This document shows positions 15,890-33,543 of a stretch of DNA of 64,000 bases, piece by piece. Origin of the DNA: a virus. The stretch lies in IMG/VR virus record IMGVR_UViG_3300044986_000731, positions 26,352 to 90,351 of that record. One strand, 5' to 3'. The notes beneath the pieces were generated by a model. That model did no database searches. It worked only from the letters and a program-made list of their open reading frames with translations, and was not told the DNA's origin. Position 1 is the first letter of the stretch; the number at the start of each line of letters is the position of its first letter. Both the position numbers and the translations under genes were made by a program.

Positions 15890-17453
15890 ACAAGGCGAGC
15901 CGTTCTACTTCGACGAGGACAAGGCCGCACACGCGGTCGGGTTCTTCGAGAAGTTCTTGATCCACTCGAAGGGTCGCTTCGCCGGCAAGCCCTTCACGCT
16001 CTTGCCGTGGCAGAGGCACGACGTCATCGAGGAACTCTTCGGCTGGATGAGGGTCGACAACGACCGGAGGAAGTACAGGGTCGGGTACATCGAGGTTCCC
16101 AAAAAAAACGGAAAATCGACCCTCCTCTCCGGCATTGGACTCTACATGCTGATTGCTGACGGCGAGCCGTCGGCCGAGTGCTTCGGGGCGGCGAATTCCC
16201 GCGATCAGGCTGGCATCGTCTACAAGCAGATGAAAGAGTTGGTGCAGGCCAGCCCCTACCTCTCGTCGATGCTGGAGATCGTCGACTCTCGCAAGACCAT
16301 CGCGTGCGTCCCGACGAACTCTTTCTGGCGTGTGATCTCGTCTGACGCCGGCCGTCAGGAAGGTCTGAATATTCACTCGCTCTGTTATGACGAAATCCAT
16401 CAGAGCCGCGACCGGGCGCTATGGGATGCGGTTCGCTACGGTTCTATCTCCAGAGATCAGGGCCTCGTTCTGGCGATTACCACGGCCGGCGTCGACCGGG
16501 ACTCGATCGGCTACGAGTTGCACTCGCAGGCGATCAAGGTCATGGAAGACCCCTCGTACGATCACCAGTTCTTCGCCTACGTGCGTGCTGCGTCTCAGGA
16601 CGACGACTACCGCAGCCCGGCCGTCTGGAAGGCCGCAAATCCTTCGTTCGGCGTCACGATGGACGAGGAGACGTTCAAGGCAGACGTGCTCGAAGCCGAG
16701 AGGTCCGGCGGCTCGAAACTCGCCGGCTTCCTGCGATACAGGCTCAATATCTGGGTGCACGGCGAGAACAAGTTCGTGAACCTGACCCAGTGGGACAAGT
16801 GCAAGGGCCGGTCCGGCCACCTCGACAAGTCCCGTGTCTGGTACTGCGGACTCGACCTCGCTCAGACGTGGGACGTGAACGCATTCGTCGCCGTCTCGAA
16901 GGCTCACGACGACGTCTACGACTGCCTGTTCAAGTTCTGGATTCCAGCCGATAACGCTCATCAACGCCGCGAGGAAGTGCCGTACGTGCTCTGGGCGAAA
17001 GACGAGTCGACCGGACTCGTGATGACGCCCGGGGACACCTGCGACTACGAATTCATCAAGCGAGACATACTCGCGTTCGCCAAGGAGCGTCAGGTCGCGA
17101 AGGTTCTCTGCGACCCGCACAACGCCCACTACCTCACGCAACAACTTCAGGCCGAGGGCCTGACAGTGCTAGGCTTTTCACAGTCGTTCGCCTCGATGAA
17201 CTCGTCGACGCGAATGCTGGAGACATTGATCAGTCAAGGTCGTCTGAGGACTCAGGACAACCCTGTCATCAACTGGATGGCCGGCAATGCGGTGACGAAG
17301 ACCTCGGCCGAGGGGTACATCAAGATCGTGAAGCCCGCATCTACCAGCCCGGCGAGAGTCGACGGAATGGTCGCGCTCGTGATGGCACTCGCTGGCGCCA
17401 GTGACGCCGAGGCTGCCGCCAAGACTCCAGAGCCGGAGATTCTCGTCCTATGA
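15834..17453 (+). CDS. terL: Terminase large subunit
   Basis: 539 residues from GTG 15834, overlapping terS by 56 bases; no later start is available. The ATPase domain has YIEVPKKNGKST (Walker A with Lys94) and LCYDEIHQ (Walker B). The nuclease domain follows, with YCGLDLAQTWDVNAFV as the first acidic strand and acidic or His residues at VLCDPHNAHYL. This pairing is typical of Terminase_1-type (HK97-like) packaging motors. The gene ends with an ATGA overlap into the portal gene. A run of eight A lies inside the Walker A codons. Confidence 0.92.
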   Translation: MPLPPKILLPRISRDEAVEQGEPFYFDEDKAAHAVGFFEKFLIHSKGRFAGKPFTLLPWQRHDVIEELFGWMRVDNDRRKYRVGYIEVPKKNGKSTLLSGIGLYMLIADGEPSAECFGAANSRDQAGIVYKQMKELVQASPYLSSMLEIVDSRKTIACVPTNSFWRVISSDAGRQEGLNIHSLCYDEIHQSRDRALWDAVRYGSISRDQGLVLAITTAGVDRDSIGYELHSQAIKVMEDPSYDHQFFAYVRAASQDDDYRSPAVWKAANPSFGVTMDEETFKADVLEAERSGGSKLAGFLRYRLNIWVHGENKFVNLTQWDKCKGRSGHLDKSRVWYCGLDLAQTWDVNAFVAVSKAHDDVYDCLFKFWIPADNAHQRREEVPYVLWAKDESTGLVMTPGDTCDYEFIKRDILAFAKERQVAKVLCDPHNAHYLTQQLQAEGLTVLGFSQSFASMNSSTRMLETLISQGRLRTQDNPVINWMAGNAVTKTSAEGYIKIVKPASTSPARVDGMVALVMALAGASDAEAAAKTPEPEILVL

Positions 17454-20400
17454 GCGAAGAGCGAGTTCTCTCTGACGTAGTCTGGACACCGGAACGCGGC
17501 TCTGCCGACCAGCCCGAAGTGCGGTCGATGTATTGGAACAACCTGCTCTTCGGCGACGACGGCTTCAACGGCCGGACCCAGACATCTGCGGATATCAGGA
17601 TCACGCCCGACACGGCCCTTCAGAGCACTGTCGTGCTCGCTGCGTGTCGCATCCTCGCCGAGTCGATCGCGAGCATGCCTCTCCACGTCTACCGCAGGAC
17701 GAAGGACGGCTACCGCGAGATCGCGAGCGACGTGCCGCTCTACAAGGTTCTCTCGTTTGCGCCCAACGAGTGGCAGACGAAGTTCGAGTTCTTCGAGCAG
17801 ATGGTGATGAACCTCACCCTGTGGGGTAACTCATACAGCCGCATTCGCTCGGGCAGGTACGGAGCCGTCTCGGCTCTCGACAACTTCCACCCGTCGAACA
17901 TGGAAGTTGAGCGTCTTGAGAACGGCCGACTGCGGTACTCGTACATGAACCCTGAGACCGGGCGAGTCGAGAGGTACTCGCAAGACGACATCATGCACGT
18001 CCGGTGGACGCCCGAGCCGAACGGCATCAAGGGCATGGTGCCTGTCGAGATCGCGAGAGAAGCGATCGCGCTGGCTCGTGCGTGCGAGATTCACGCCGGC
18101 CGGTTCTGGGCGAACTCAGCACGCCCGGGGATCGTGCTCCAGACGGACAGTTCTCTCTCGCCGGAGGCTGCCGAGAGGCTCCGCGACAACTGGGAGCGGA
18201 TTCATAGGGGAGTCGATCGAGCGAGCCGCACAGCGATCCTCACGAATGGACTCCGCGTCGAGCAGGTCGGATTCAACGCCGAGCAGTCCCAGTACGAGTC
18301 GACACGCCGCTTTCAGAGTGAGGAGATCGCGAGAGTCTACAGGTTGCCGCTCTCGCTCATTCAGGGCCAGTCCTCCGGAAGCATCGAGGAGAACGGTCAA
18401 GAGTTCGTCACCTACACGCTCGTGCCGTGGCTCCGACGCATCGAGTCGGCCATCTCGCGAAGCCTGATCTACAACGACGACGTGTTCTTCGCGGAGTTCG
18501 ACACGAAGGGCCTGATGCGGGGCAACTCAAACGCCCGCGCGGGCTTCTATTCGACGATGATCAACCTCGGCTTGATGACTCACAACGAATGCCGTCGCGC
18601 CGAGAACCTTCCACCCATCGGAGAGATCGGCGACCACCACCTCGTCGCGATGAATCTCCAGCCGCTCGAAGCGGCGACGAAGCCGAAGGAGCCGCCGCCG
18701 GGGATGCCGGGGATGCCGGGGCCACCGCCGGAGGCTGCCGGAGGCGTGCCGAGCCTGCCCGGGGTCAAGACTGGCAAGACTCCGACCGAGTCCGAGCAGG
18801 GCGAGGCCTCCGAGAAGAAGCCGGACGAGCCGCTCGTCGAGTACGCCGAGGGCAAGTTCGGCCGGGTCAAGCACGTCATGGAGGAAGGCACGCTCGACCT
18901 GAAGTCCGGCGAGAAGATCGAGGTCGAGCCGGGCAAGCCCGTGGCTCTCGTCGTCGACGAGGAGACCGGAGAAGAGGTCGGCGTCGAGGCGTCAAAACTC
19001 AAGCCAGTCGAGGAGAAGCCGGCCGTCGAGGAGAAGCGAGGCCTCACGCCACAGAGCGAGGCCCTGTACAAGTCGCAGGAAGAGATCGCGAGGAAGCACG
19101 GTCGGTGGAAGCAGGCCGACGCACACTACGTGCCACGCTCGCCGTTTGCCACCAAGGGCATGGTGTGCCGCAACTGCGTCTACTACGAGGACGGCGGCGC
19201 GTGCGAGATCGTCAAGGGTGGCATCAACCCGGACGGCATCTGCAAACTCTGGGTGATCCCGAGCGAGAAACTCGTCGAGACGCGATCGCCGGAGGAGGAG
19301 GCCCGCTCCGCCGACTGCGGTCGAGACGAGGGCGGCAGGTTCGGCTCTGGAAACAAATGCCAAGAGGACGGCAGCGGAGGTGGAGGCTCCGGGGGAGGAA
19401 TGTCGTCGCCGGCCGGCGGCGAGCCAGACAAGGTGTACGGGAGCGTATCCCCGGACGTGAAACTTCCGCCGCCTGTCCGCACGATCGACGCCGAGGCGTT
19501 GCTCGAACAAATCTCGAAGAACCCGAACGGATTCACGCTCGACCCGTACTCGGCTGAGTCTCCGTCCGACGGAATCATGGTGAGCGAGTTCAAAAACGAC
19601 TCGCGTCGCTCGGTGAAACTCAGTGCCAAGGACATCGTCACTAAGGAAGGGCGAGACTCGTTCGCAAACTGGCTGAAGTCAAACTCGGACGTGCTTCAGG
19701 GCTTCGAGGGCGAGCGGTTCGTCGGAGGGTGGAGAGCGGGCGACGACTTCTACATCGACATCAGCACTCGGTTCTCGCCGGAAGAGGCGGAGCGAGCACT
19801 GGAGGTCGGACGCGACTCGGGCCAGTTGGCTGTGTTCAACTTGGGCACGCTCAAGGAAACGTGGGTGCAGTACGACTCGGGCGACGACAGGAAGCCTCCT
19901 GAGTGGGACCGGGCGTTCGCACGCGCGAGGAAGGACGCTCAGGTCGATCAGGTCTACGGCGACGCTCCCGATCTTCAGGATGAGGACATCGCTGCCGACC
20001 TCTCGAAGCACGGCAAAAAGACCGTTCGGGCGTATAATCTCGCCGAGGAGACAGAGAATGGAACAGCCGCAGCGGTTCGACGTGCCGGCGAAGAAGAAGA
20101 GCCTGTTGGAGACGTACCGCGCGATGCGGACGTACTTCGAGAAGGTCGCGGAGAGCCAAGGCAAGACTCTCGATCCGTCGTGGTACGAGGACGGGCCGGA
20201 CCAGATGCCGCAACTGTACGAGGATCAGACGCCGCAAGACGGCTGATCGAGAACGCCGAGGCCGCATACCGAGCGGCGTTCGGCAGCACGCCCTTCCCTC
20301 GCGTGGAGTTCCGCGACATCGGCGACGCATACGCCTACTACTCGCCAGAAGACGACACGCTCTACGTGTCACCTGACGCAGGCGAGCCAGACGACTCAGA

Positions 20401-20656
20401 CGGCTGGACGTCGAGCGGCAACCCCCTGCTCCACGAGGCATGCCACCGCATCCACCGCACATCCGACGCCGACTCTTATCGAGACTCCGAGAGCGTCACG
20501 TTCACGCCCGAGCAGCGTGAACTGATCGAGGCCGAGGTCTCTCGGTACGCGGCAGTCAACGCCCGCGAGTTCATCGCGGAATACATCGCAGGACAGTTGT
20601 CTGGAAAGATTTACTCTCCTGATATCACAGCGATCGCAAGGTCGATCTGGCGATGA
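17450..20656 (+). CDS. Portal protein with long C-terminal extension (Cys cluster, CX13C tag, metallopeptidase-like domain)
   Basis: 1068 residues, far beyond the usual 400-500. Residues about 1-400 are an HK97-type portal (DTALQSTVVLAACRILAESI, PNEWQTKFEFFEQMV, and MINLGLMTHNECRRAENLPP at the end). A Pro-rich linker follows, then an acidic helix. A cluster C573-x2-C576-x8-C585-x12-C598 fits HiPIP-like spacing. The CX13C tag is at 623-637. A beta-rich module (FVGGWRAGDDFYIDISTRF) follows. The last 130 residues form a zincin-like domain with HEACH at 995-999 and Glu1044 in REFIAEY. Residues about 870-932 overprint another gene and read poorly in this frame. Confidence 0.88.
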   Translation: MSEERVLSDVVWTPERGSADQPEVRSMYWNNLLFGDDGFNGRTQTSADIRITPDTALQSTVVLAACRILAESIASMPLHVYRRTKDGYREIASDVPLYKVLSFAPNEWQTKFEFFEQMVMNLTLWGNSYSRIRSGRYGAVSALDNFHPSNMEVERLENGRLRYSYMNPETGRVERYSQDDIMHVRWTPEPNGIKGMVPVEIAREAIALARACEIHAGRFWANSARPGIVLQTDSSLSPEAAERLRDNWERIHRGVDRASRTAILTNGLRVEQVGFNAEQSQYESTRRFQSEEIARVYRLPLSLIQGQSSGSIEENGQEFVTYTLVPWLRRIESAISRSLIYNDDVFFAEFDTKGLMRGNSNARAGFYSTMINLGLMTHNECRRAENLPPIGEIGDHHLVAMNLQPLEAATKPKEPPPGMPGMPGPPPEAAGGVPSLPGVKTGKTPTESEQGEASEKKPDEPLVEYAEGKFGRVKHVMEEGTLDLKSGEKIEVEPGKPVALVVDEETGEEVGVEASKLKPVEEKPAVEEKRGLTPQSEALYKSQEEIARKHGRWKQADAHYVPRSPFATKGMVCRNCVYYEDGGACEIVKGGINPDGICKLWVIPSEKLVETRSPEEEARSADCGRDEGGRFGSGNKCQEDGSGGGGSGGGMSSPAGGEPDKVYGSVSPDVKLPPPVRTIDAEALLEQISKNPNGFTLDPYSAESPSDGIMVSEFKNDSRRSVKLSAKDIVTKEGRDSFANWLKSNSDVLQGFEGERFVGGWRAGDDFYIDISTRFSPEEAERALEVGRDSGQLAVFNLGTLKETWVQYDSGDDRKPPEWDRAFARARKDAQVDQVYGDAPDLQDEDIAADLSKHGKKTVRAYNLAEETENGTAAAVRRAGEEEEPVGDVPRDADVLREGRGEPRQDSRSVVVRGRAGPDAATVRGSDAARRLIENAEAAYRAAFGSTPFPRVEFRDIGDAYAYYSPEDDTLYVSPDAGEPDDSDGWTSSGNPLLHEACHRIHRTSDADSYRDSESVTFTPEQRELIEAEVSRYAAVNAREFIAEYIAGQLSGKIYSPDITAIARSIWR
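20058..20246 (+). CDS. Small gene nested in another frame of the portal gene, 62 aa
   Basis: ATG 20058 follows GAGGAG with 7-base spacing. The product begins MEQPQRFDVPAKKKSLLETY and contains YFEKVAESQGKTLDPSWYED, a plausible helical protein. Its codons have mostly G or C at position three, while the portal frame over the same bases does not and gives a low-quality Arg/Glu/Gly linker. Its stop overlaps CTGA, after which the portal frame regains sense as the metallopeptidase domain. Function is unknown. It could be a real independent small protein, or the sign of a former gene boundary. Confidence 0.65.
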   Translation: MEQPQRFDVPAKKKSLLETYRAMRTYFEKVAESQGKTLDPSWYEDGPDQMPQLYEDQTPQDG

Positions 20657-23600
20657 TTTTCCTAGAGAAGAAATACTCGGCTGCCGAGTATCGCAGTCTC
20701 GTCGAGGCTCGCGGAGACGGGCAGTGCACGGACAGTGATCGCCAAGAAGGCGGCAGGTTCGGCGATGGGAACGACTGCCAGAAGGAAGGAAGCGGTAGCG
20801 GCGATAGTTCCCAGACGAAAACGAAGTCCAAGGCGAAGTCCGGAGGCTCTGATGTCAAGGAGCCTCTCTCGTGGAGTCGCGGAAAGCCTCACATAACTCC
20901 GTTCGAGTCGGTTTCAAGCAACAACCCGACCCGGAGGTCTGAGGACGGAAAGAAGATTGAGTCCACGTCCATCGAAGGCGCCGTTGTCACTCAGGCAATC
21001 GCCGGAAAAGACGAGGTCGACCCAATATCTGTGGGCCGACACCTGCTTTCGGTTCAGGCAGAGCATCGCGGAAGGCCGATCGACACAACTGAAGAACTTC
21101 AGGGCGATGATTTCGAGTACATGGTCTCTGGTGTCGCTGCTCAGGTCGAAGCGGCTATGGCGAGAGGAGTGAGACCTAACTTTTACAGCCCGCAAGATCG
21201 CAAGGCCCAGATGGACGAGTACGCGAAGATTCAGCCTCTCATGCGAGGCGGAAGAACAGCGTCTGGATTTTGCATCGGCGTGGAAGGCCCGAACGGAGAG
21301 TGCGATCCGGGGAGTGATATATCTCCACAGGCTGAGTTCCTTTTCAGGGCCGCACAGGCTCTCACATCGCCAGAAGCAAACCCGTTCGAGAACATGCTCC
21401 GGGCGGACAAGGTATTGACTGCTTTCTTTGAGCAGCCGGACCCGGATAAAGCGAAACTTGGACTCGGACTGAGTATGCCCGGAGCCGGTGCCGGCGAGGC
21501 GATCAAAAACTTCTCTCGACTGCAAAAGATCATCGACAGGGTAGGGCTTGATGAGGCAAGGCGGCTTTTCTCCGAGCCGCCTCTCAGGGCCGGAGACTTC
21601 GAGAGATACTTTCTGGACAGGATACCGGGGACTGAGGGGGATCGTTACAAGGCAAACGACTACGCCGTCGACGAGGTCGTTCCTCTGTTCAGCATCTTTG
21701 GCCCGAAGGTTGGGCCTTTCTTCGCGAACAACACAGGAGACCTCGATGCGCTAACTGCGGACATCTGGTTCACTCGAACATGGGGAAGACTCTCCGGCGA
21801 GTTGATCGAGCAGACAAAGCCGTCGCTGGCAAAGACTCACGCTTCAAAACTCATGTCGATGACGTCAGAAGTTCCAAGAAAGGAACTCTCCGCAATAGGC
21901 GTGGACGGCAGGCAGTTCAGGACTGCCATCTCAGGAATGAAAAAGAGCGGCGTCATTCCGCAGACTGTGATTTCTTGGGCAGAGAAAAGAATCAAGCAGT
22001 ACTCAAAGGACGGGTTCCCGAGTCCGGAGAAAAAAACAGGAACGCAGGAGCGGTACGAACTCGACAGGCTTGCTATAGCAATCTCCAAAAATCAAACGAG
22101 AGTTCTCAAGACCCCAACAACAACCGTCATGCGGTCAAACATGATCCGCGTGATGAAGGAGGCGTCCGCTCGCACGGGAGTCCCCGTCGCGTACATGCAG
22201 GACATCCTGTGGCAAGACGAACAGGACGCTTGGGGGTCGCTCGGCTCTCGCACGACGACAACGCCGGGCGAACCGTCGCTTTACTCGGATGTGATCCGCA
22301 AGATCGTCGAGAACCCCCAGTACCGCGAAAAGCGACGAGCAAACAAGCGATCGACTGACGACGTCGGCGAGCCGCAGGAGTACGAGTACCTCACTGACCA
22401 GAAGGGTGGACTGGAGCAGTCGCTGTACGAGGCGTTTATTCAGAACTTGAGCGACGACGAGTTCGCAGACCTCGCCATCGACCTGCTTACTCGCAATGCC
22501 GAGAAGAACGACGAGCAGAGAAACTTCGCAGCCCTCGACGTCGAGCAACGCGCCGGCCTCGACTGCGGTCGGCAAGAAGGCGGCAGGTTCGGCCCGAAGA
22601 ACATGTGCGCCGCAGATGACGGCGGCGCGAACGTGACTGGTGGCGGAGCGACAGCAACAGCACCGACAGCACCGAGCACGAGATGGCAGTCCAGCAATCG
22701 CGGCATCGTCAAGTGGTCTGGCAGCAGCCTCGCGAAGGACAGCCCGATTAGCGGAGGCGAGAAACTCCGCTCTGTCGAGATCAGGAGGCCGAAGGAACTC
22801 GCCAAGGCGATGGGTGACGTCCTTCCTGAGTCAGCGACGCTAGACGACGTCGTGACGATCGGCGGTGGTGCCGTGCGAGGGTCTGACCTGATGGTCACTG
22901 GCGTCGGAGACACGATCTCCACGCAGATGACTACGCCCGTCGATCCTTCGGAGCCTGAAGGCTGGAGGGTGTACTCCGACGTGCACATGTCAGGCGCAGA
23001 CGGCGTGATCACCGCCGTCGATTACGGACTCCTCGAAATCTATCCGCCCGGAGCAGACGGCGATGATCCGTTCTATGACCCGCCGTCGCCGGACGACGCG
23101 GTCGTCAGTCGCATCACATCCATGATGATGGAGAGAATGACCGACTCGCTGATGACAGCAGAGAGGCTCGGTGCAGAGCAAGCAACGACGACGGCCATCG
23201 GGGATGGGCACTCTGACGCCCAGTGGAAGGGGTACCGACTCTGGCCGCAGTTCGGGTTCGACGGCCCGATCACTCCACGCACGGTGAGCATGATCGAGGA
23301 CGAGCCGGACCTGACGTTCCTCTCGGACGAAGCCAGAGACAAGTGGGACGCTGGCGAGCAACTCACAGTGCAGGACATCATCGCAACGCGAGAGGGCCGG
23401 CTCTGGTGGGACGAGAATGGATCGTCCACCGATATGTCATTCGACTTCAGCGACAAGTCATCGAAGGGCTACCGGCAGTTCGAGCGGATGAAGCGGCTCC
23501 TGCCGAAACTTCGCGAGCGAAACAAGAGCCGGAGTTGGATCGAGGCGTCCGAGTCTCGCAACTGCGCGAGAGAGGCGACCGGGCAGTTCGCCGACGGCAA

Positions 23601-26600
23601 CGAATGCCAAGAGAAGGGCACCGGGACTGCCGAGTCGCAAGACTCGTGGCGGGAAGATGGCGGCACCGTCCTGTGGGACAGCGAGCGGCCTCCTGTTCGA
23701 GGCGAACTCGCCTCGCTGGAGGTGCAGGGCGGAAGAGACGTGGCGAAGGCGATGGAGTCGGTCGGCGTCGACTCTCTCGATAAGGTCGTCTCGCTCGGAG
23801 GCGGCACGGCGAGAGGCGCCGAGGTCCGCGTCTCTGCGTACGGCACGCACACCGTAGCCGTGTCCACGCGAATTCCAATCGACCCGCAGGCCCCGCAGAG
23901 CGACGACCCGTACGAAGGTGCGGTGACATCCAGCGTGATGATCTCTCGCGGAAGGGACGGCAAGTCCACCCTGCACTACGGCAGCCTCTACACACCCATG
24001 TCGGTGTCGTCGGCCTCCGCCACGAAAGAGGACCGGCTTCGCATCGCGAGCCTGCTCAAGGAGCACTTCCTCGAATCGCTCTCGACCGCCGAGGCCGTTG
24101 GCATCTCGTCTGCGGACATGGCAGCAGCCGGAGACGCCGAGGACAAGTATTTGCAGGGCTACCGGCTCTGGCCTCAGTTCGGCTTCGACGGCGAGGTGCC
24201 GAATCTCTCGGAGGTGCCAGACGAGATCGTGCTCAGGGCAGCAGGCATCGACATCCCACCCGCAGGCTCAACTCGAATCCCTCATGCGACCGTGATCCGC
24301 AGCCTCCGCAGCCGCGTCAGGAGCCTCACGGTGCAGCAACTCATCTCAGTCCGCGAGGGCGATCGCTGGTGGGACGAGAACGGCACTGACGTCTCGCTCT
24401 CGCTCGATCTCACGGACAAGACCTCGCTGGGATACAAGCGATATCAGGAAGCAAAGAAGTCCCTCGCCCGCCTGAAGGAACGCAACAAGTCTCGCGATTG
24501 GCTCGATTGGCTCGACGATTTGGAGTCGCGAGACGCCGACTGCGGACGCGACGAGAGCGGGCGTTTCGGCACCGGCAACGACTGCGGCGCCGGCGACGGG
24601 CAGCCGTCGGCCAAGGAGGACTCCAAGGCCAGAGACGCACGAATCAAGCAGGCGTCAAAATCTCTTCCACAATCAATAGCAGCGACTGACGCAAAGTCTC
24701 TCGGACTCGCCGCTCACAAGCAGTTCTCTCCAGTTGGTGTATCGAAAAATTCAGACAATCTGCCGATCAAATCCGACGACGAACTTCGACGCGCGCTGCG
24801 CGGAATGACCGGACCGAAAGGAAGCCAAGTCCCGCAGCGCGACCTCGTCGGCGCGCATAGAAGGCTCGACAAGGGGCACCCAGTTGATCTCCGCATTGAC
24901 ATCAATGCGTTCGAGGATTTTGACACTTATGCCGTGACTGTGCACGAGCACGCAGGAGGCAAGGGGGTCGGAAAGCCAATTGGGTTTGACTCGCTCGTGC
25001 GGCTGGGAGGTCGGGTTTCGTTCTCGTCTGACGAAAACGTAGCAACAAAAATCGCAATGGGCATCGGGAAGACGCCGATTGCGACTGTCAAGGGAATGTT
25101 CGACCCTTCTCGCGACATACCGAGCGACATCGATTCGTGGACTCCCGTCGGATTTGATCCAAAGAAGGCCGCGTACTTCTACGACAAGAGGACAGGAGAC
25201 GAAGTCACAGGCGGAACAGACGCCGTGAGTGTTGGCAACTCGGTATTCGTCAGAGTCCCAGAGTACGCGAACCCTCCACGCAACGCCGCCCGTCAGTACC
25301 GCAACGCGGGCTTCTGGGGCCTCGAATCTCGCGACGCCGACTGCGGACGCGACGAAGGCGGGCGTTTCGGCTCCGGCAACAAGTGCCAAGAAGACGGCGA
25401 AGGCCCGGCCGCTGAGAAAGTGACGTGGTCTGCCGGCAGCGGCGAGCCGCCGTTCGAGGGCGCTGAGAAAGCAGCGAGCGTCTCGGTGAGCGGCAACAAA
25501 GAAGTGACCGATAGTCTGGATACGCTCGGAGTCGACAAGTCCAGCATCGTCGACCTCGCCGGTGCGGCCGGCGGATCAGTGTTCATTCGCCCGGCCCCGG
25601 ACCTCACCACGAAACTCCCCGGAGGCGTGCTTCCGGTCCTGATCAGTTGGGACCGTCCGTTCGGGGGCGTGGACTACGGCATCGAGGGATCGTCTGCCGT
25701 CGGTAAGAACGACAAAGGCGAGTCGATCCTGTACCACTCCACGGTGACCGTCGATCCACGCGCGAAGGACACGCCGGCGAAGAGGCACGCAGCCGCGACC
25801 GCCTTCTACTCGATGATGAGCGAGAGCGTGCAGGCCGCGAGAAAGGCCGGCATCTCCGAGGTGCGATTCAATGCGTCCGGAAGCAAGGTCGACAAGTCGT
25901 GGAAGGGTTACACGATATGGCCCCGCATGGGCTTCGACGCACCGCTCCCCGCCGACCTCAAGGCGAAACTACCCGAGACTCTCTCGCACGCGAAGAGCCT
26001 CCTCGACCTCCACGCCACGCGAGAGGGCACGCAGTGGTGGAGCGAGAACGGACGCGAGGTCGACGTGAGTTTCCGGCTCGACGACCCTTCGTCGCCGCAG
26101 GCCCGGATCATGTCGCGATTCATCAAGCGATTCTCGACCAACCGCCGAGACATGCCTCTCGGCGCCGGCGACGGCTGGCTCTCTCCGGCCGACCTCGCGA
26201 GGTTCGATGAGTTGTGGGAAGAGATATGGGACGAGGGTGATCTCGACGAGTACGAATTCGCCGAGTCTCGCTCGGCTGATTGCGGGCGAGACGTGGGCGG
26301 TAGGTTTGACCAAGGGAATCAGTGCCAAAGAGGGGCAGGGAAAGTGGCATCCCTCGCCCGGTCTGGTGCGAGCCACGAGGAACTGGTGTCTGCAATCTCT
26401 GAAGCCATCGGAACAAAGCGAGGTTGGTTCAGTGGCCCAGAGAAAGGCGAGTCGTCTCCGTCCGAGGTATGCGCTGCTCTCGGTCTCAACGTGGAGAACG
26501 ACTGGATCGTAGATCAGCAGCACGAAGAGGCGTCGCAGTCCGATAGAGAGGCAATTGCAAGAACGATCGCTGAGTGCTACTCGGCTGTCCAGTCCTCTCC

Positions 26601-27159
26601 ATCGCTGAAGGACGTCTCGTTTCACATTCAGACGGCAAGTTCGATGGCTAAATGGTCTGGCTTGCCTGCATCTGATTACGAGGGAACTCAGGGCACATAC
26701 TTCCCCGGAGACGATGCGGTTCATGTCGTAGCCGGAACAATGCCTCAGTATGTGACGCCTGAGTATCTTTACGAGACAGAGTACTCCTCCACTCCATCTC
26801 CCGCTCACACGCTCGTGCACGAAGTCGCGCATAAGGAGCACTACGAGAACGCCAGCCGCGAACTTGGAATGCCGAGGCAAGCCAACGCAACCGACGCGCA
26901 GTCGCTGCGATGGGCGAAAAAAGTCGAGTCCGCGATTGAGCAAAACTTAGAGCGCGAAGGAGAAAAAGACCCCGCATGGGCTGAGAGGGTTACGTCGAAG
27001 GTTCCGACCTTGGGGTTTTATGCGACAACCGACCCGTTTGAGTTTGTGGCCGAGTACTCGACGGCGGTGAAACTGGGTTACAAGAAAAACGATGCCGACC
27101 TCGACAGAATGTGCAAGGCACTTCTAGCACCAGTTCCCAGAAAGGAGAAGCGAGCATGA
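20653..27159 (+). CDS. Giant modular protein of six CX13C-tagged domains, with a C-terminal metallopeptidase
   Basis: 2168 residues from ATG 20653 (ATGA overlap). Tags start at residues 25, 638, 971, 1297, 1564 and 1877. Module A (25-637) contains YAVDEVVPLFSIFGPKVGPF and is unrecognised. Modules B, C and E are paralogues with GYxLWPxxGFDG near 862, 1172 and 1755, followed by REGxxWWxENG. Module D has AYFYDKRTGDEVTGG and VGNSVFVRVPEYANP, a pattern I associate from memory with phage polyvalent proteins. Module F has HEVAH at 2056-2060 and Glu2134 in FEFVAEY, a zincin pattern. No membrane segment or tape-measure feature is seen. The position suggests a capsid-internal or injected protein. Confidence 0.75.
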   Translation: MIFLEKKYSAAEYRSLVEARGDGQCTDSDRQEGGRFGDGNDCQKEGSGSGDSSQTKTKSKAKSGGSDVKEPLSWSRGKPHITPFESVSSNNPTRRSEDGKKIESTSIEGAVVTQAIAGKDEVDPISVGRHLLSVQAEHRGRPIDTTEELQGDDFEYMVSGVAAQVEAAMARGVRPNFYSPQDRKAQMDEYAKIQPLMRGGRTASGFCIGVEGPNGECDPGSDISPQAEFLFRAAQALTSPEANPFENMLRADKVLTAFFEQPDPDKAKLGLGLSMPGAGAGEAIKNFSRLQKIIDRVGLDEARRLFSEPPLRAGDFERYFLDRIPGTEGDRYKANDYAVDEVVPLFSIFGPKVGPFFANNTGDLDALTADIWFTRTWGRLSGELIEQTKPSLAKTHASKLMSMTSEVPRKELSAIGVDGRQFRTAISGMKKSGVIPQTVISWAEKRIKQYSKDGFPSPEKKTGTQERYELDRLAIAISKNQTRVLKTPTTTVMRSNMIRVMKEASARTGVPVAYMQDILWQDEQDAWGSLGSRTTTTPGEPSLYSDVIRKIVENPQYREKRRANKRSTDDVGEPQEYEYLTDQKGGLEQSLYEAFIQNLSDDEFADLAIDLLTRNAEKNDEQRNFAALDVEQRAGLDCGRQEGGRFGPKNMCAADDGGANVTGGGATATAPTAPSTRWQSSNRGIVKWSGSSLAKDSPISGGEKLRSVEIRRPKELAKAMGDVLPESATLDDVVTIGGGAVRGSDLMVTGVGDTISTQMTTPVDPSEPEGWRVYSDVHMSGADGVITAVDYGLLEIYPPGADGDDPFYDPPSPDDAVVSRITSMMMERMTDSLMTAERLGAEQATTTAIGDGHSDAQWKGYRLWPQFGFDGPITPRTVSMIEDEPDLTFLSDEARDKWDAGEQLTVQDIIATREGRLWWDENGSSTDMSFDFSDKSSKGYRQFERMKRLLPKLRERNKSRSWIEASESRNCAREATGQFADGNECQEKGTGTAESQDSWREDGGTVLWDSERPPVRGELASLEVQGGRDVAKAMESVGVDSLDKVVSLGGGTARGAEVRVSAYGTHTVAVSTRIPIDPQAPQSDDPYEGAVTSSVMISRGRDGKSTLHYGSLYTPMSVSSASATKEDRLRIASLLKEHFLESLSTAEAVGISSADMAAAGDAEDKYLQGYRLWPQFGFDGEVPNLSEVPDEIVLRAAGIDIPPAGSTRIPHATVIRSLRSRVRSLTVQQLISVREGDRWWDENGTDVSLSLDLTDKTSLGYKRYQEAKKSLARLKERNKSRDWLDWLDDLESRDADCGRDESGRFGTGNDCGAGDGQPSAKEDSKARDARIKQASKSLPQSIAATDAKSLGLAAHKQFSPVGVSKNSDNLPIKSDDELRRALRGMTGPKGSQVPQRDLVGAHRRLDKGHPVDLRIDINAFEDFDTYAVTVHEHAGGKGVGKPIGFDSLVRLGGRVSFSSDENVATKIAMGIGKTPIATVKGMFDPSRDIPSDIDSWTPVGFDPKKAAYFYDKRTGDEVTGGTDAVSVGNSVFVRVPEYANPPRNAARQYRNAGFWGLESRDADCGRDEGGRFGSGNKCQEDGEGPAAEKVTWSAGSGEPPFEGAEKAASVSVSGNKEVTDSLDTLGVDKSSIVDLAGAAGGSVFIRPAPDLTTKLPGGVLPVLISWDRPFGGVDYGIEGSSAVGKNDKGESILYHSTVTVDPRAKDTPAKRHAAATAFYSMMSESVQAARKAGISEVRFNASGSKVDKSWKGYTIWPRMGFDAPLPADLKAKLPETLSHAKSLLDLHATREGTQWWSENGREVDVSFRLDDPSSPQARIMSRFIKRFSTNRRDMPLGAGDGWLSPADLARFDELWEEIWDEGDLDEYEFAESRSADCGRDVGGRFDQGNQCQRGAGKVASLARSGASHEELVSAISEAIGTKRGWFSGPEKGESSPSEVCAALGLNVENDWIVDQQHEEASQSDREAIARTIAECYSAVQSSPSLKDVSFHIQTASSMAKWSGLPASDYEGTQGTYFPGDDAVHVVAGTMPQYVTPEYLYETEYSSTPSPAHTLVHEVAHKEHYENASRELGMPRQANATDAQSLRWAKKVESAIEQNLEREGEKDPAWAERVTSKVPTLGFYATTDPFEFVAEYSTAVKLGYKKNDADLDRMCKALLAPVPRKEKRA

Positions 27160-27290
27160 CTCAGGTCGTGAAGACAGACAAGAACGAGAGCACTGAAAGC
27201 ATTCGCAAGAGGCTTGAGAAGATCGGCGACCGGAAGGTTCCTGAGTTCTGGAAGAAGATGTTCACTGGAAAAAACGATGGCAAAGCCTGA
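27156..27290 (+). CDS. Small helical protein, 44 aa
   Basis: ATG 27156 overlaps the giant gene stop (ATGA) and has AAAGGAG at 27141-27147. The product starts MTQVVKTDKNESTESIRKRL and ends KKMFTGKNDGKA. It is one charged amphipathic helix with a Trp. It overlaps the next start by 14 bases, which supports a coupled real gene. Function is unknown; it may be a small head or scaffold helper. Confidence 0.6.
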   Translation: MTQVVKTDKNESTESIRKRLEKIGDRKVPEFWKKMFTGKNDGKA

Positions 27291-29343
27291 AAAATACGCG
27301 CACATCGACTTCAAGCCTCCCAACGGCGTTCGCCGCGAGGCCGAGTACGGATTGAAACTCCGCCGCGAGCACGGACGCGGAGGCACGGCCGTGGGCATCG
27401 CCCGCGCGAGAGACTTGTCGAACGGAGTTGAAGTCTCGCCGAGCACGGTGCGGCGGATGAAGGCGTTCTTCGATAGGCATGCGTCGGATGCGAAGGCGCC
27501 CGGTTTCAATCGCGGTGACGAGCAGTATCCCTCAAACGGGCTGATAGCCAACAAATTGTGGGGTGGCCCGAGTGGCTACTCGTGGTCAAAGAAGGTAGTC
27601 GCACAAATGGAAGCGGCCGACCGCAAGGCCGGAGACAGCCGCTCGCTCCGCCCGTACGGCTCGACGCACGGCATGAAACCGCGAGTCAAGGTCGTTTACG
27701 GTGCCCCCGGCTCTGGCAAGAGCGATTACGTGTGGGCGAAGAAACGCGATGACGATGTCGTCTTCGACTTCGATCGGATCATGTCTGCAATCTCCGGCCT
27801 GCCGTATCGCCAGCACAACAAGAGACTGATCTCTTACTGCACAGACATTCGAGCGCTTATCCTGAAAAAAGCGTTGTACGGAAACGATAATACGACGTGG
27901 ATCATCACGACTCGTGTGAACGATGACTTGGCTGATTCGCTCGGAGACATACCGGTCGAGTACATCGAGATGGAGGCGACGAAGGACGAGTGCCTGAAGC
28001 GGGTCAACGAGTCACCCGAGTGGCAACCAGTCATCGAGGAGATCAAACAGGTGATCGACGAATACTTTTCCGATCGCGAAGAGCAGCGTTCCGCAGACAC
28101 CCGCGCGGGCGTCGAGCGCCGGTACCTCGGCAACTTCTCGCAGACAGAGAAGGCCGACCCGGGCATGCTGCGAGTCGAGCGTCGCGCTGATCCGTCGACT
28201 GGAAAGCCACGGACGTACCTTGTCGGCTATGCGGCCGTGTTTCACAAGGACAGTTTGATGCTGGGTGATTTCATCGAGCGCATTCACCCGGACGCATTCC
28301 AGATTGTGAAGGACCGTCAGGACGAGGACGGAAAGCCTCTGGAAACGCGATGCCTTTTCAACCACAGCGCCGATCACCTCCTCGGCAGGTTCCCGACGAC
28401 GATGCGAATGACGGTCGACGACAAGGGACTGCGGTACGAGTGCCTGCTGCCAGAGTCTCGCGCGGACGTTGCAGAGTTGGTGGAAAGAGGCGACCTCAAG
28501 GGTTCAAGTTTCAGTTTCGTCGTGCACCCGGACGGTGGAGAGGAATGGAAGACCGAGGACGGGCAGTCAATTAGAGTCGTAAAAAAAATAAAGGCGCTCC
28601 TCGATTGTGGCCCAGTCACCTACCCGGCGTATGGCGATGCCAGCGTTGCAGTCGCGAAGAGAAGTTACGAGACGCACGTCATTGAGCGACGCAGTGACGT
28701 GAAAATGGCAGGAGCCAAGAAGACGAAGCGTCCTCGCCGGCCTGACGTGTCCTCTTCGGTCGACAGCCTGAAGGCTTTCCTCGCAGAGCGGCGAAGCGGC
28801 GAGTGCGGCCGTGACGAGTCAGGCCGGTTCGGCTCGGGCAACAAGTGCCAAGACGACGGCGGAGGAGACGAAGACTCTGATCCGCCTGCCGAGCAGCCCG
28901 CATCCGACAGCGGCAAGGGCGTCGCTGAGTTGTCTCCGAAGCCGAAGTCATCTCGCCCCAACTACATGGAAGTCTCCGGTCCGATGACCAAGGCCAAGGC
29001 AAAGGCCGCTCAGAAATTCATCGACGACGCGCGTCAGGGGCAACTCGAACGCGGCGGCAAGGACGGAGGTCAGTCCGACGACGGAGGTGGTGTGCAGACG
29101 TGGAGCAAGGGCGACTCGTATCCGTGGACGACGAAGCAGGTCGGCACCGACTCTGGGTACCTGCAAGCACAGCACCCAGACGGATCGAAGACTCAGAAGT
29201 ACACGTTCGAGCGTGGCGACACAAAGCCAGCACTGGACGCGCTAAACGCCGAACTGAAGAAGAAGGGCAAGAAGCCGGACACCCGTAGTCTGGTTACGCA
29301 CACTATCGCAGAGACCATGAAGTTCTTGCGGGAGCGACGCTGA
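27277..29343 (+). CDS. Fusion: DUF domain + P-loop ATPase/kinase + HK97 prohead protease (S78) + CX13C-tagged tail
   Basis: 688 residues from ATG 27277. Residues about 10-115 (PPNGVRREAEYGLKLRREHG, VSPSTVRRMKAFFDRH, NKLWGGPSGYSWSKKV) form a domain often linked to phage head proteins. Residues 139-270 are a P-loop domain with GAPGSGKS at 142-149 and VVFDFDRI. Residues about 300-480 are a prohead protease, with LFNHSADHLLGR (His363) and GSSFSF (Ser410-413) as likely catalytic residues. The CX13C tag starts at residue 510, and a Lys-rich C-terminal domain follows. Prohead proteases cut the capsid delta domain; the fused ATPase is unusual. Confidence 0.85.
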   Translation: MAKPEKYAHIDFKPPNGVRREAEYGLKLRREHGRGGTAVGIARARDLSNGVEVSPSTVRRMKAFFDRHASDAKAPGFNRGDEQYPSNGLIANKLWGGPSGYSWSKKVVAQMEAADRKAGDSRSLRPYGSTHGMKPRVKVVYGAPGSGKSDYVWAKKRDDDVVFDFDRIMSAISGLPYRQHNKRLISYCTDIRALILKKALYGNDNTTWIITTRVNDDLADSLGDIPVEYIEMEATKDECLKRVNESPEWQPVIEEIKQVIDEYFSDREEQRSADTRAGVERRYLGNFSQTEKADPGMLRVERRADPSTGKPRTYLVGYAAVFHKDSLMLGDFIERIHPDAFQIVKDRQDEDGKPLETRCLFNHSADHLLGRFPTTMRMTVDDKGLRYECLLPESRADVAELVERGDLKGSSFSFVVHPDGGEEWKTEDGQSIRVVKKIKALLDCGPVTYPAYGDASVAVAKRSYETHVIERRSDVKMAGAKKTKRPRRPDVSSSVDSLKAFLAERRSGECGRDESGRFGSGNKCQDDGGGDEDSDPPAEQPASDSGKGVAELSPKPKSSRPNYMEVSGPMTKAKAKAAQKFIDDARQGQLERGGKDGGQSDDGGGVQTWSKGDSYPWTTKQVGTDSGYLQAQHPDGSKTQKYTFERGDTKPALDALNAELKKKGKKPDTRSLVTHTIAETMKFLRERR

Positions 29344-31733
29344 TGCCGAGTCTTTCGACACAGGCCCGTATCGCGAGCCTGACGGCGTTTGCCGAGGCCC
29401 GAGCAGGCGACTGCGGGCGGGACAGCGGGCGGTTCGCGAAGGGGAATAACTGCCAGTCATCGGCTGCTTCGCCGCCACGGCCGAAGACTCTTGAGCAGGA
29501 GCGGATCGACGCTGCGAGAGACGAGGGCGAGGAGCCTGAGCAGGCCACGAAGGCTGACGTCACTGAAGACGTGAAGACGTACATCCGACTGTCCGGCTAC
29601 GGCTGGGCTGAGTTCGTGCGCAAGTCTCAGTCGCACAGCCCCGACACGATTCGCAATGCGAGGCACGCGAAGAACAAGGCCGTGCAAATCTACCGCGAAG
29701 AGGGCGCCGCCGGTTTCGGGCGATACCTCGAAGAGATCGGCCTGCGAAGTCTAAGCCCGACCGAGGCTCGCCGCATCAGGCCGATCAGGCAACGCCCGTC
29801 CCTGCCGGGACAGATGCGGCTGCCTCTCTCCGGTGACAACTGCGAGCGAAATCCGGGGGGCACGTTCGCGAAGGGCAATACGTGCCAAGAAGGCGCCGGC
29901 CTGTCGCGAGATGAGCAGGAGAATACTGGGAGGCTTTACGACAGACTGTCCTCGACTGAAGAGCCATTTATTACGCTGGGGCCGAGCGAGGCTGCCAAGA
30001 CTCCGGGGTTTGAAAAAGCCCATCAGGTGAGCGTAAGTAGCCCGAACGACGTATCGCGGATACTTCGCGAGAACAGCGTAAACACAAAGCAACTCGCCGC
30101 GCTTGGTGTCGCCACTGAGCCGGGCGCGAAAGTTACAGTGTCGGGATACGGAAACAGGCTTGTCGTTAGGTCAAATATCCCGGTCCCTATTTCAGCCGAA
30201 GAACTAGTCGCAGCCGGGGCTGTCAGCCCCGGACAATCCGCGCAGGAAAAGGCAGCAGAAGTAATCGCAGATACAGGCGCCCACATCAGCATTGACATGA
30301 CGCTTGGTGGCGTCGACAGCCAAATTCATTACGGACTCTTTCAGGTCAGCCACAGTATTCAAAACGCTATCGCCATGCACGCATCTGTTCAGGAGTCGCC
30401 AGACGGCCCTTGGACTGACGAGCAAAAGGCTCTTGCGGAACTGGGAAATAAAGCCAACCGTTTTTTCGGCGGCGCAATCATAGACCTCATGGGCCAGTCT
30501 CTTTTTGAGGCTGAAAAAGCGGGAATTCATACGGCCGAGACAAGCGCCGTTGGTCGTGGACGAGGGGGCGGTCAAGGAGCAGGTCGGGCCGACTCATTTA
30601 CTTTCAAAGGGTACTCGCTGTGGCCGAGGTTCGGGTTCGACGGCGAGATTCCTTCTTCTACTCAGATTCAGATCGACCCGATTCTGCGGGAAATTTTCGC
30701 GGAGGGGCCTGACTCTCCGAGGCGTCGCGTTCTCACTGAGGATGGCTGGGAAAAATGGCAGAGCGGCTCGATGCGTATTCAAGACCTCGTCGAGACTCCG
30801 CAGGGCGAACGGATGTGGCGAGACTACGGATCGTCAGCCCACATGTCTATCGACTTTCGCGACAAGGAGTCGAAGGGATACAAGAAATTCACAGAGGCAA
30901 AGGAAACGGCTTCTCGCGCGAAGCGGCGGCGAGAAAGACGCGACTTGTCTCAGTGGCTCTGGGACACTGACTTCCGCTTCGATCCCGAGATTTTCTTCGT
31001 CGAACGACGAATGACTCGGTTTCTCGAATCGCGAAACTGCGGCACCGGAGCCGGCGGCTTCCAGAAGGGCAACACCTGCGGAGGCGTCGCTGCCGACGTC
31101 GCCGCATCGGCAGCCGAGGGTGCAGTCACAGGCGCTGCCGTGGCTGCCGGCAAGACGGCGTTCTTCCCGCCGACCGTTGCGACGGGAGCCGCCGTCGGCG
31201 CTGCATACGGCGTGATCGGTGGTCTCTACGACGCAGCGATGTCCCCTACGCGGGCTGGCAAAGCCATCGCGGCTGTCGGCAGCACGGACGAGAAGGTCGC
31301 GACTCTCGTGAAAGGCCTCGGAGGCTCACCGAAGTCTGTGGCGAAGTCGAAAGACGGCAAGAGGCTGACGCTCGATATCAAGGGCAGCAAGGGCGAGTCA
31401 AAGTTCCGGGTCGAGATCGAGAAGGACTCGATCACCATCACGCCGTCGAAAGAAAAACTGAGCGACGACGAGGTCGAGACGATCAAGCAGGTGGCGGCTG
31501 ATCACTCCGGCAGAGAGGTGAGGGTCATCGTCGACAAGGTGCCTGTCTCGACCATGAGCAAACTGGCGAAGGCCGGGTTCCGAATCGGCGTGACGGTGAC
31601 TGGCGCAATGGCCGCAGGCCTGCTGGTCCCCATGATTCCGTCGGTGGCCGGCACCGCAATCGAGAAGGTGGGCGGTCTCGACATCGAGAAGTCCGGAGTG
31701 CTGAAGCCGATCGACAAGGTGTTCGGTCTGTAA
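29343..31733 (+). CDS. Modular protein with three CX13C-type tags and a GFDG domain
   Basis: 796 residues from ATG 29343 (TGATG overlap). Tags begin at residues 24, 167 and 566, the first and third with CX12C spacing. The first module has a helical YIRLSGYGWAEFVRKSQSHS segment. The second is a paralogue of the GFDG modules, with GYSLWPRFGFDGEIP near 426. The third is Ala/Gly-rich with likely membrane-active helices (VTGAAVAAGKTAFFPPTVAT and GVTVTGAMAAGLLVPMIP) around a small charged domain. It lies between the protease and capsid genes, so an internal capsid or injection role is plausible. No enzyme is recognised. Confidence 0.7.
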   Translation: MPSLSTQARIASLTAFAEARAGDCGRDSGRFAKGNNCQSSAASPPRPKTLEQERIDAARDEGEEPEQATKADVTEDVKTYIRLSGYGWAEFVRKSQSHSPDTIRNARHAKNKAVQIYREEGAAGFGRYLEEIGLRSLSPTEARRIRPIRQRPSLPGQMRLPLSGDNCERNPGGTFAKGNTCQEGAGLSRDEQENTGRLYDRLSSTEEPFITLGPSEAAKTPGFEKAHQVSVSSPNDVSRILRENSVNTKQLAALGVATEPGAKVTVSGYGNRLVVRSNIPVPISAEELVAAGAVSPGQSAQEKAAEVIADTGAHISIDMTLGGVDSQIHYGLFQVSHSIQNAIAMHASVQESPDGPWTDEQKALAELGNKANRFFGGAIIDLMGQSLFEAEKAGIHTAETSAVGRGRGGGQGAGRADSFTFKGYSLWPRFGFDGEIPSSTQIQIDPILREIFAEGPDSPRRRVLTEDGWEKWQSGSMRIQDLVETPQGERMWRDYGSSAHMSIDFRDKESKGYKKFTEAKETASRAKRRRERRDLSQWLWDTDFRFDPEIFFVERRMTRFLESRNCGTGAGGFQKGNTCGGVAADVAASAAEGAVTGAAVAAGKTAFFPPTVATGAAVGAAYGVIGGLYDAAMSPTRAGKAIAAVGSTDEKVATLVKGLGGSPKSVAKSKDGKRLTLDIKGSKGESKFRVEIEKDSITITPSKEKLSDDEVETIKQVAADHSGREVRVIVDKVPVSTMSKLAKAGFRIGVTVTGAMAAGLLVPMIPSVAGTAIEKVGGLDIEKSGVLKPIDKVFGL

Positions 31734-32031: not shown

Positions 32032-33543
32032 ATGGACTCGTCTGCCAAGGTCAAGTCGCTCCTCGATGAACTCGCCGCCGTTCTCGCTGAGATGGGCGCG
32101 ATGCAGGACGAGGAGGCCCCCGCCGAGCGCATGTACGGCGAGGACGAGCCGAAGGAAGACGAGAAGCGGGAGATGCCCGAGGGCGAGGGCGAGGACGAGG
32201 ACGAGGACGAGGTCGAGGAGAACGGCTACGCCCCGAAGGACGTCGAGGACACCGAGGCCACTCCTGCCGAGGGCGACGACGAGAAGGAGCGGAAACTCCG
32301 CTGCCTCTGCTCCCGCGCGGAGAAACTCCGCAAGAGGATCACCTTCTACGAAGGCATCCAGAAGAAAGAACTCGAACTGCGATCGGTGCTCGATAAGGCG
32401 ACCCCGGCCGAGGTCGCTGGTTACCCCACTCGGGAGAAGCGGAACGTGCACATCTACCACAACCTGCCGGGCGCCGGCCGTCTGAAGAACTTCAAGGGCG
32501 CGAACGCCGAGGAGCGGGCTTACCGCGCCGGCCAGTACTTCCGCGCCACGCTGCTCGGCGACAAGAACGCCGCTCGGTGGTGTTCTGACCACGGCGTCGA
32601 GTCTCGTGCACAGTCCGAAGGCGTGAACTCGAAGGGCGGTGTGTTTTTGCAGGAGGAGGTTCTCAACGAGGTGATCGTCCTCACCGAGGAGTATGGGGCC
32701 TTCCCTGCGAACGCTCGAAACATCCAGATGAAGTCGGACACCCTCGTGGTGCCTCGACGGACTGGCGGTCTCAGCGCGTATTTCGTCGGGGAGAATTCGA
32801 GTATCCCCGATTCCGACGCTAGTTGGGATCGCGTGCAGATCGTAGCCAAGAAGGCTGCGGTCTCGAACCGCCTCAGCACCGAGGTGATGGACGACTCTGC
32901 GATTTCTCTCGGTGACTATTTGGTAGGCGAAATTTCGAGAAGCCTCAGCGAACTCGTGGACACCGTCGGGTTCGTGGGGACAGGGAGCGGTGACCACGGT
33001 GGAATCGTCGGAGCATGCACCAAGATCGTCGACGGCACGCATGACGCCAGCGTCGTGACCGCCGCCGCCGGCAACACCGGTGCCCTGACCCTCGACATCG
33101 ACGACCTGATCGCTTGTGCAGGTCGACTCCCGCTCTTTGCGAGGGCGAATGCCAAGTGGTATTGCAGTCCCGCAGTTTTCGCGGCCTCCGTGCAGCGGCT
33201 CGGCCTCGTGAACAACGTCGGACTCTCGGGTGGCAACACGGCTGCGAACCTCGCTTCGCCCGCCGAACTTCGCCTGCTCGGTGCCCCGGTGGTGTTCGTC
33301 CACACGATGAGCAACGTGATCGGCGCCGACCCCGGCGTGGTCAAGTTTCTCTACGGTGACCTCTCCATGTCGTCGATGTACGCGACTCGTCGCGGCCTGA
33401 CCGTGAAGAAGTCGGACGAGCGGTACATCGAGCAGGATCAGTCGTTGATCGTCTGTTCAATGAGGTTTGACTGCGTTACGCATGACTGCGGCGACCAAGT
33501 CAAGGCCGGACCGATCGTGGCTCTCAAGACTGCGGCTTCGTGA
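32032..33543 (+). CDS. Major capsid protein (HK97 fold) with N-terminal delta domain
   Basis: 503 residues from ATG 32032. Residues 1-120 are a coiled, very acidic scaffolding (delta-like) region (KSLLDELAAVLAEMGAMQDE, EGEGEDEDEDEVEENG). The HK97 core follows: SKGGVFLQEEVLNEVI (N-arm end), SDTLVVPRRTGGLSAYFVGE, KAAVSNRLSTEVMDDSAISL (spine and E-loop region), LVDTVGFVGTGSGDHGGIVG, and a C-terminal YATRRGLTVKKSDERYIEQD. Length and order are normal for a precursor cut by an S78 protease. An ESR triplet lies at 190-192, just before the GG, but this part of capsid proteins is often similar. Confidence 0.93.
   Translation: MDSSAKVKSLLDELAAVLAEMGAMQDEEAPAERMYGEDEPKEDEKREMPEGEGEDEDEDEVEENGYAPKDVEDTEATPAEGDDEKERKLRCLCSRAEKLRKRITFYEGIQKKELELRSVLDKATPAEVAGYPTREKRNVHIYHNLPGAGRLKNFKGANAEERAYRAGQYFRATLLGDKNAARWCSDHGVESRAQSEGVNSKGGVFLQEEVLNEVIVLTEEYGAFPANARNIQMKSDTLVVPRRTGGLSAYFVGENSSIPDSDASWDRVQIVAKKAAVSNRLSTEVMDDSAISLGDYLVGEISRSLSELVDTVGFVGTGSGDHGGIVGACTKIVDGTHDASVVTAAAGNTGALTLDIDDLIACAGRLPLFARANAKWYCSPAVFAASVQRLGLVNNVGLSGGNTAANLASPAELRLLGAPVVFVHTMSNVIGADPGVVKFLYGDLSMSSMYATRRGLTVKKSDERYIEQDQSLIVCSMRFDCVTHDCGDQVKAGPIVALKTAAS

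Follow-up and report, generated by a model that had tools for sequence, protein, structure and literature searches.

A repeated cysteine-pair tag heads diverse domains between phage portal and capsid genes, next to a putative head-protease site

Here we describe a repeated cysteine-pair tag in a 64,000-nucleotide stretch of DNA (the window), part of a 90,351-base IMG/VR virus record (IMGVR_UViG_3300044986_000731), where it heads a series of unrelated protein domains encoded between the portal gene and that of the major capsid protein (MCP). Our preferred reading, to which sequence comparison leads us to give a probability of about three in four, is that these domains are effectors of the polyvalent type which would be cut free inside the prohead by the S78 protease, retain the tag as their N-terminus and then be ejected. 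In the sequences, the tag and its location are constant, the site ahead of the tag covaries with the capsid and the enzyme domains behind it vary; cleavage, packaging, ejection and the chemistry of the tag are what we infer. In the proposed scheme, effector-type domains would enter the prohead fused to the portal or the prohead protease, or strung together in large polyproteins. As the head matures, the S78 protease responsible for trimming the capsid delta domain would also cut these chains at E-x-R↓ (K↓ in other phages; the arrow marks the predicted cut), directly ahead of most tags, freeing the domains within the head. Each freed domain would start with the tag, about 20 residues long, and a Gly/Ser/Asp linker, would be ejected along with the DNA and would act on the host. 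Most probably the tag acts once the cut has been made, giving every cargo the same N-terminal handle or cap, by which the cargo would be held or ejected and which may be redox-switched.

The tag takes the form C-x(12,13,16)-C and ends in F-x-x-[GK]-N-x-C. Eleven copies are present, all on the + strand, in exactly the four consecutive large open reading frames (ORFs) named in an earlier note on this DNA, with one copy in the portal ORF, six in an ORF of 2168 amino acids, one in the protease ORF and three in an ORF of 796 amino acids. The cysteines are 13 residues apart in eight copies, 12 in two and 16 in one. F..[GK]N.C was found nowhere else in the window in six frames, and the DNA core TTYNNNNNNGGNAAYNNNTGY gave 10 matches against 0.07 expected, with a maximum of 1 across 100 shuffles. 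CIGVEGPNGEC, a candidate twelfth copy in the 2168-residue protein, was rejected, as it lies inside a conserved cargo domain (domain 1) and is missing from some homologues. That the tag is more conserved than the domains behind it, as had been claimed, holds both for the four GFDG paralogues of the window (mean identity 0.52 for the tag vs 0.29 for the domain) and for 574 family pairs with domain identity below 30% (0.61 vs 0.24, the tag figure being somewhat inflated because anchor residues served to find the tag). This conservation is one of peptide and not of recently copied DNA, since 70 of 112 fourfold sites with an identical amino acid differ between copies. A recombination seam at the DNA level, or a recent duplication, used in domain shuffling with no function as protein, would suit domains that are clearly shuffled behind a constant element; the synonymous divergence, however, points to selection on the peptide and leads us to reject this explanation as hardly credible.

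Beyond the window, first pattern scans of viral contigs and a search for relatives recovered 288 distinct copies, which take two forms, C-G-[RQ]-D-x-[GD]-G-[RK]-F-x-x-G-N-x-C and C-G-T-G-x-G-G-F-x-x-G-N-x-C, together termed tag A. Tag A lies within 110 residues upstream of 42 of 87 non-redundant GFDG domains; most of the remainder are headed by a sister Cys-pair tag (tag B) that had so far gone unnoticed, [AG]-[FY]-C-P-T-G-x-G-G-G-[IV]-[DK]-N-[SD]-C, and one by a Cys-less form. After a further scan the totals stood at 296 A-type and 236 B-type tags in 283 viral loci, which are distinct sequences and not independent events, related contigs from the same environments being included. Wherever both flanking genes were identified, the tags lay between portal and MCP (87/87), and a whole-contig search of 20 records returned 40 matches in 13 records, confined to a single strand in each, with 0 control matches. 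The tag ORFs include 39 fused to HK97-family portals and 21 fused to S78 proteases, in the gene order terminase large subunit (TerL), portal, S78 protease, MCP. Another 51 come from loci without HK97-family portal or S78 genes, and here 25 carry a lambda-family and five a Mu-type portal (portal type being taken from Pfam counts; a strict lambda-portal hidden Markov model found 7 loci). Tagged extensions are therefore found on three unrelated portal families, HK97 (PF04860), lambda (PF05136) and Mu (PF06074), so that the common element is position plus tag and not any one virion protein. Searched with the R-type pattern, 84,980 species genomes yielded 5 chance-like matches and no clear prophage counterpart, the other tag patterns gave none in three bacterial genomes, and whole-domain tblastn of the GFDG and zincin domains against phages gave no match. 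In locus L055 (ORF 1-2610, + strand), a Cys-less tag-like sequence, FDPNQPRENDGKFASKAGGGG, sits just upstream of a GFDG domain (residues 545-793); similar DPxQPRDxxGRF strings occur in other phage head proteins.

The domains behind the tags are diverse. Clustering of all downstream segments by mutual coverage gave 105 families, of which 72 were singletons, and a scan of 123 non-redundant segments against Pfam and PHROG returned ART-PolyVal, ADPrib_exo_Tox, ART, Zeta_toxin, GNAT, ATLF-type, Mu_F and LPD1 matches as well as an Alt-like ADP-ribosyltransferase PHROG. The earlier note had proposed a cargo cassette between portal and capsid, with a tag profile whose hits should cluster in that interval and head unrelated domains; the confinement of the tags and the effector-type character of what follows them strongly support this. 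Might the tagged domains instead be structural, in head completion or as scaffold, and not injected effectors? Some downstream segments do match Mu_F or minor head PHROGs, and the Gly/Ala-rich domain behind the last tag of the window is without known activity. The ART, GNAT, Zeta, PARP and zincin-type domains, however, are enzymes, some of them of a class ejected by T4 (Alt), and we consider a structural role very unlikely.

Within the window, two HExxH domains, four GFDG paralogues and a YFYDK domain bear out the domain diversity first reported. The HExxH domains, which might process the chain as zincin metallopeptidases, are without a Pfam match, and the junctions of the chain fit the capsid site. 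The GFDG domain gave a high-confidence model that resembles GNAT acetyltransferases (NatD, AtaT and others), a likeness of fold only given a best PDB E-value of about 1e-3. In this AlphaFold2 model, the predicted local distance difference test score is about 47-62 over the tag, indicating disorder, and about 94 over the domain; moreover, one domain family occurs with tag A, tag B or the Cys-less form. Both results support a tag that is separable and not part of the fold. Domain 1, with the conserved signature FSIFGPKVGxFFANN...RTWGR, gave a confident all-alpha model with no PDB match. Part of it has relatives in podophage virion-region proteins of about 3000 amino acids near lysozyme and tail genes, and part of the YFYDK domain has one in a 995-residue podophage protein encoded between portal and MCP genes, in both cases without the tag. 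The Gly/Ala-rich domain (VAADVAASAAEGAVTGAAVAAGKTAF; 31086-31730), just ahead of the capsid gene, is kept in the same place by many relatives, often after ARYASLLAFAESR↓.

Ahead of the tags lies a candidate processing site. E.R occurs within 10 residues upstream of 48% of A-type tags compared to 4.8% of random positions, and tag B shows it at fixed spacing, with E at -5 in 72% and R at -3 in 90%. In the same phages the boundary of the capsid delta domain typically reads [E/D]-x-R↓A...GG, as in the MCP of the window (GVESR↓AQSEGVNSKGG), and some phages have K both at the capsid boundary and ahead of their tags. Indeed, tags in the main R-type MCP cluster are preceded by R in 224 cases and K in one, and those in K-type MCP clusters by K in 18 and R in none, one paralogue cluster (L135/L165/L155) being left out of these counts. 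The agreement of capsid and tag residue is significant by Fisher's test (p=1.8e-5 on 70% clusters, 0.005 on 50% clusters), and in a prospective test, new loci fetched by a tag pattern with K just upstream had a K-type MCP in all eight cases with a capsid gene. Base composition was rejected as an explanation, K/(K+R) across ORFs being 0.40-0.63 in the K-type clusters and 0.53 in the main R-type cluster. Many stand-alone cargo ORFs open with a propeptide that is short, with 8-25 residues in many cases and more in some, and that ends in the site, such as MPSLSTQARIASLTAFAEAR↓, MISARYASLLAFAQSR↓, which is conserved, and MKGVTESR↓. Of the processing role suggested earlier for the tag, then, processing itself is supported, but the signal is the E-x-R/K just upstream, covarying with the capsid maturation site, a feature that the earlier note had missed.

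Several observations weigh against release by the head protease as a general account. Known-effector matches cover only part of the roughly 100 downstream families. Copy 10 of the window has no E-x-R directly upstream, and in the L108/L115 family (14 loci) most copies are without a basic residue there. Three clusters mismatch at 70%, and at 50% L110 is the other case of K before the tag under an R capsid; one mismatching cluster, L135/L165/L155, represents in our judgement a second paralogue of the MCP whose alignment picks the wrong residue. Close relatives are common among the loci, so that raw counts overstate independence, and the eight prospective K-type loci amount to about six independent ones. 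A tblastn search of 50,697 phages with the tags as short-peptide queries, for which the method is insensitive, gave nothing convincing. Finally, loci without HK97-type head genes (mostly with lambda or Mu portals, and including most of the lambda-portal loci) often have E-[LF]-x-D upstream: E.R has a frequency of 0.18 there vs 0.57 in loci with these genes, and E-[LF] 0.30 vs 0.04 (Fisher p 2.8e-8). Such a difference would be expected if each phage matches its own protease. In lambda-portal loci L116, L125, L152, L160, L184 and L194, another conserved signature (KKKETELD, KKSKELED, KESELADN) abuts the tag and may be where a different head protease cuts.

What, then, would the tag do? It may be a prime-side recognition element, or a flexible presenter, that serves the prohead protease and has no further part to play once the cut is made, and its fixed spacing to the site, strongest in tag B, and its predicted disorder would fit. 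The capsid protein, however, has the same kind of site without a tag, and in phages that lack HK97-type head genes the tag follows other signatures, which makes this improbable. Alternatively, as had been proposed, the tag itself may be a capsid-incorporation signal that recruits each domain by binding to the scaffold or to the inside of the capsid, the E-x-R site being secondary. In keeping with this there is one tag per domain, on stand-alone proteins too, among genes between portal and capsid. Yet the tag is kept on cargo that is already a covalent part of the portal or protease (60 ORFs), which suggests that it does more than recruit; a single polyprotein would need one tag for recruitment and not six; and in stand-alone proteins conserved propeptides such as MISARYASLLAFAQSR precede the site, which is the targeting position in T4. 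We therefore regard incorporation as the main role as the less likely case, and rather doubtful. A role after the cut, as an N-terminal handle or cap shared by the cargo, is the most likely, since the capsid site does without a tag, the tag persists in portal and protease fusions and two different sequences fill its place.

How such a handle might work is suggested by the cysteines, which are the defining constants of both tag sequences in cargo that is otherwise Cys-poor (0.35% vs 1.36% in TerL/MCP; 191 of 283 segments without Cys). A redox- or metal-bound loop formed by the Cys pair is plausible, and the disulfide locking proposed in the earlier note is possible. The more specific idea of a redox latch, oxidised in the extracellular virion and opening in the host cytoplasm so as to control folding, clustering or activity of the cargo, is a mechanism for the tag that is compatible with protease release. 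We hold it possible while leaning against it: virion proteins may be Cys-poor anyway (there is a single Cys in the 1849-residue ORF at 38368), one domain (in L055) is headed by a form without Cys and metal binding would give the same picture.

More tentatively, and at somewhat less than even odds, these sequences may follow a general delivery grammar, [own head-protease site]-[interchangeable Cys-pair tag A or B]-[flexible linker]-[any effector], used on three unrelated portals, in which the tag would be an ejection handle under redox or partner control and new effectors would arise by domain swap. The tag itself offers a simple rule for searching metagenomes, in that what lies behind it is probably an injected phage effector. 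The capsid gene of a given phage reveals the predicted cleavage site, and this site links the effectors to capsid maturation. About 100 domain families, the majority unannotated, come to light in this way as probable early anti-host or anti-defence functions. If the tag is indeed a portable delivery signal, a general rule for head loading would extend beyond T4.

The features of the window are listed in Table 1. The gene order is TerL, HK97-family portal, 2168-residue ORF, S78 protease ORF, 796-residue ORF and HK97-type capsid, and Pfam and PHROG matches confirm the identities of TerL, portal, S78 protease and capsid, including the portal and capsid flanks first assigned from the letters. In the portal extension, a four-Cys segment (19166-19243, CRNCVYYEDGGACEIVKGGINPDGICKLW) is reminiscent of high-potential iron-sulfur protein (HiPIP) with no Pfam match, and a similar segment, PDAICKLWIIPDERL, stands immediately before the tag in L111. 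Ahead of the S78 domain (27214-28395) lie a phrog_2859 domain, which also recurs among lambda- and Mu-portal tag proteins, and then a P-loop (YGAPGSGKSDYVW) region that matches terminase small subunit/ATPase PHROGs. Downstream of the head genes, the 1849-residue ORF (38368-43917) possibly encodes the tape measure.

Table 1. Features of the window; upstream residues are given with the predicted cut (↓).
Feature	Position	Strand	Details
TerL (context)	15834..17453	+	phrog_9 E=9e-143, PF20441/PF03354
Portal ORF	17450..20656	+	PF04860 at residues 61-386
Portal C-terminal extension	within 17450..20656	+	4-Cys HiPIP-like segment, tag copy 1, GFTLDP-type region, HExxH domain
Tag copy 1	19316..19360	+	CGRDEGGRFGSGNKC; upstream EEEAR↓SAD
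2168-residue polyprotein	20653..27159	+	N-terminal propeptide and six tag-headed segments; no Pfam/PHROG match
Its N-terminal propeptide	20653..20724	+	MIFLEKKYSAAEYRSLVEAR↓GDGQ, ahead of tag copy 2; predicted cleavage after VEAR
Tag copy 2	20725..20778	+	CTDSDRQEGGRFGDGNDC; x16 spacing
Cargo domain 1	20842..22539	+	all-alpha; no PDB match
Tag copy 3	22564..22608	+	CGRQEGGRFGPKNMC; upstream DVEQR↓AGLD
GFDG (GNAT-like) domain 1	22690..23499	+	fold prediction
Tag copy 4	23563..23607	+	CAREATGQFADGNEC; upstream EASESR↓N
GFDG (GNAT-like) domain 2	23647..24465	+	
Tag copy 5	24541..24585	+	CGRDESGRFGTGNDC; upstream DDLESR↓DAD
YFYDK domain	24586..25341	+	
Tag copy 6	25342..25386	+	CGRDEGGRFGSGNKC; upstream WGLESR↓DAD
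GFDG (GNAT-like) domain 3	25405..26133	+	fold prediction
Tag copy 7	26281..26325	+	CGRDVGGRFDQGNQC; upstream EFAESR↓SAD
Zincin-like domain	26326..27156	+	HEVAHKEH, seen in sequence; no Pfam match
Protease ORF	27214..29343	+	phrog_2859 domain (15-139), P-loop region (158-294), S78 prohead protease (332-487), tag copy 8, C-terminal domain
Tag copy 8	28804..28848	+	CGRDESGRFGSGNKC; upstream AFLAERR↓SGE
796-residue ORF	29343..31733	+	three tags; N-terminus MPSLSTQARIASLTAFAEAR↓AGD
Tag copy 9	29412..29453	+	CGRDSGRFAKGNNC
Tag copy 10	29841..29885	+	CERNPGGTFAKGNTC; no E-x-R directly upstream
GFDG (GNAT-like) domain 4	29889..30923	+	
Tag copy 11	31038..31079	+	CGTGAGGFQKGNTC; upstream FLESR↓N; heads Gly/Ala-rich domain
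HK97-type MCP	32032..33543	+	PF05065 E=5e-32; N-terminal delta-type domain
Putative capsid maturation site	32599..32610	+	GVESR↓A (residues 190-193)

To conclude, the earlier statement that no system of this kind has been described was too strong, as functional precedents exist in the targeting sequences and internal proteins of T4 and in polyvalent proteins. The repeated tag, the sister tag, the layout of tagged polyproteins and the match of cargo and capsid sites were not found in the literature searched, and the tag strings gave no matches there, a coverage that is incomplete and no proof of novelty. In HK97-type proheads, a phage protease removes the delta domain before expansion (PMC3185693). 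The T4 internal proteins (IPI-III, Alt) are packed, trimmed via short propeptides by the prohead protease gp21 and ejected (PMC9026906). As in T4 capsid targeting, stand-alone cargo here carries a short N-terminal propeptide that ends at the processing site, the cargo site agrees with that in the head protein of its own phage (R with R, K with K in the MCP) and an ADP-ribosyltransferase is among the cargo, which in T4 enters the prohead and is ejected (PMC9026906). In contrast to gp21, which cuts after Glu, the protease here would be S78 with R or K as the probable P1 residue; unlike in T4, many domains form chains in polyproteins or extend the portal and protease, and each freed domain would keep a Cys-pair tag for which we found no T4 counterpart.

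A second likeness is to polyvalent proteins, which Iyer et al. 2017 (PMC5512222) describe as large multidomain phage proteins that bring together unrelated effectors, ART-PolyVal, LPD1 and zincins among them. Some of these proteins are joined to MuF or portal domains and are presumed to be packaged. Here too, one polypeptide carries several disparate tag-headed domains, with ART-PolyVal, GNAT, Zeta, ATLF and LPD1 among the downstream segments, in portal-terminase phages and with fusion to virion proteins (HK97, lambda and Mu portals). The word 'cysteine' does not occur in the text of that paper, no repeated tag or portal-capsid polyprotein was found in the passages covered, and processing is mostly ascribed to zincin peptidases, whereas here E-x-R/K sites match the capsid site. 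The MuF polymorphic toxins (PMC5576092) likewise place variable effector domains on a head protein; theirs, however, is the MuF domain of temperate phages, whereas Mu_F is absent from the window proteins and present in 2 of 123 downstream segments elsewhere, and the tag had no clear prophage counterpart in one genome scan. There is also some likeness to the ejected giant virion proteins of the N4/T7 type in the podophage relatives of domain 1, which, unlike the tagged cargo, are single proteins without the tag and away from the portal-capsid block. The logic of the system is thus known from the internal proteins of T4, and its contents are known from polyvalent proteins.
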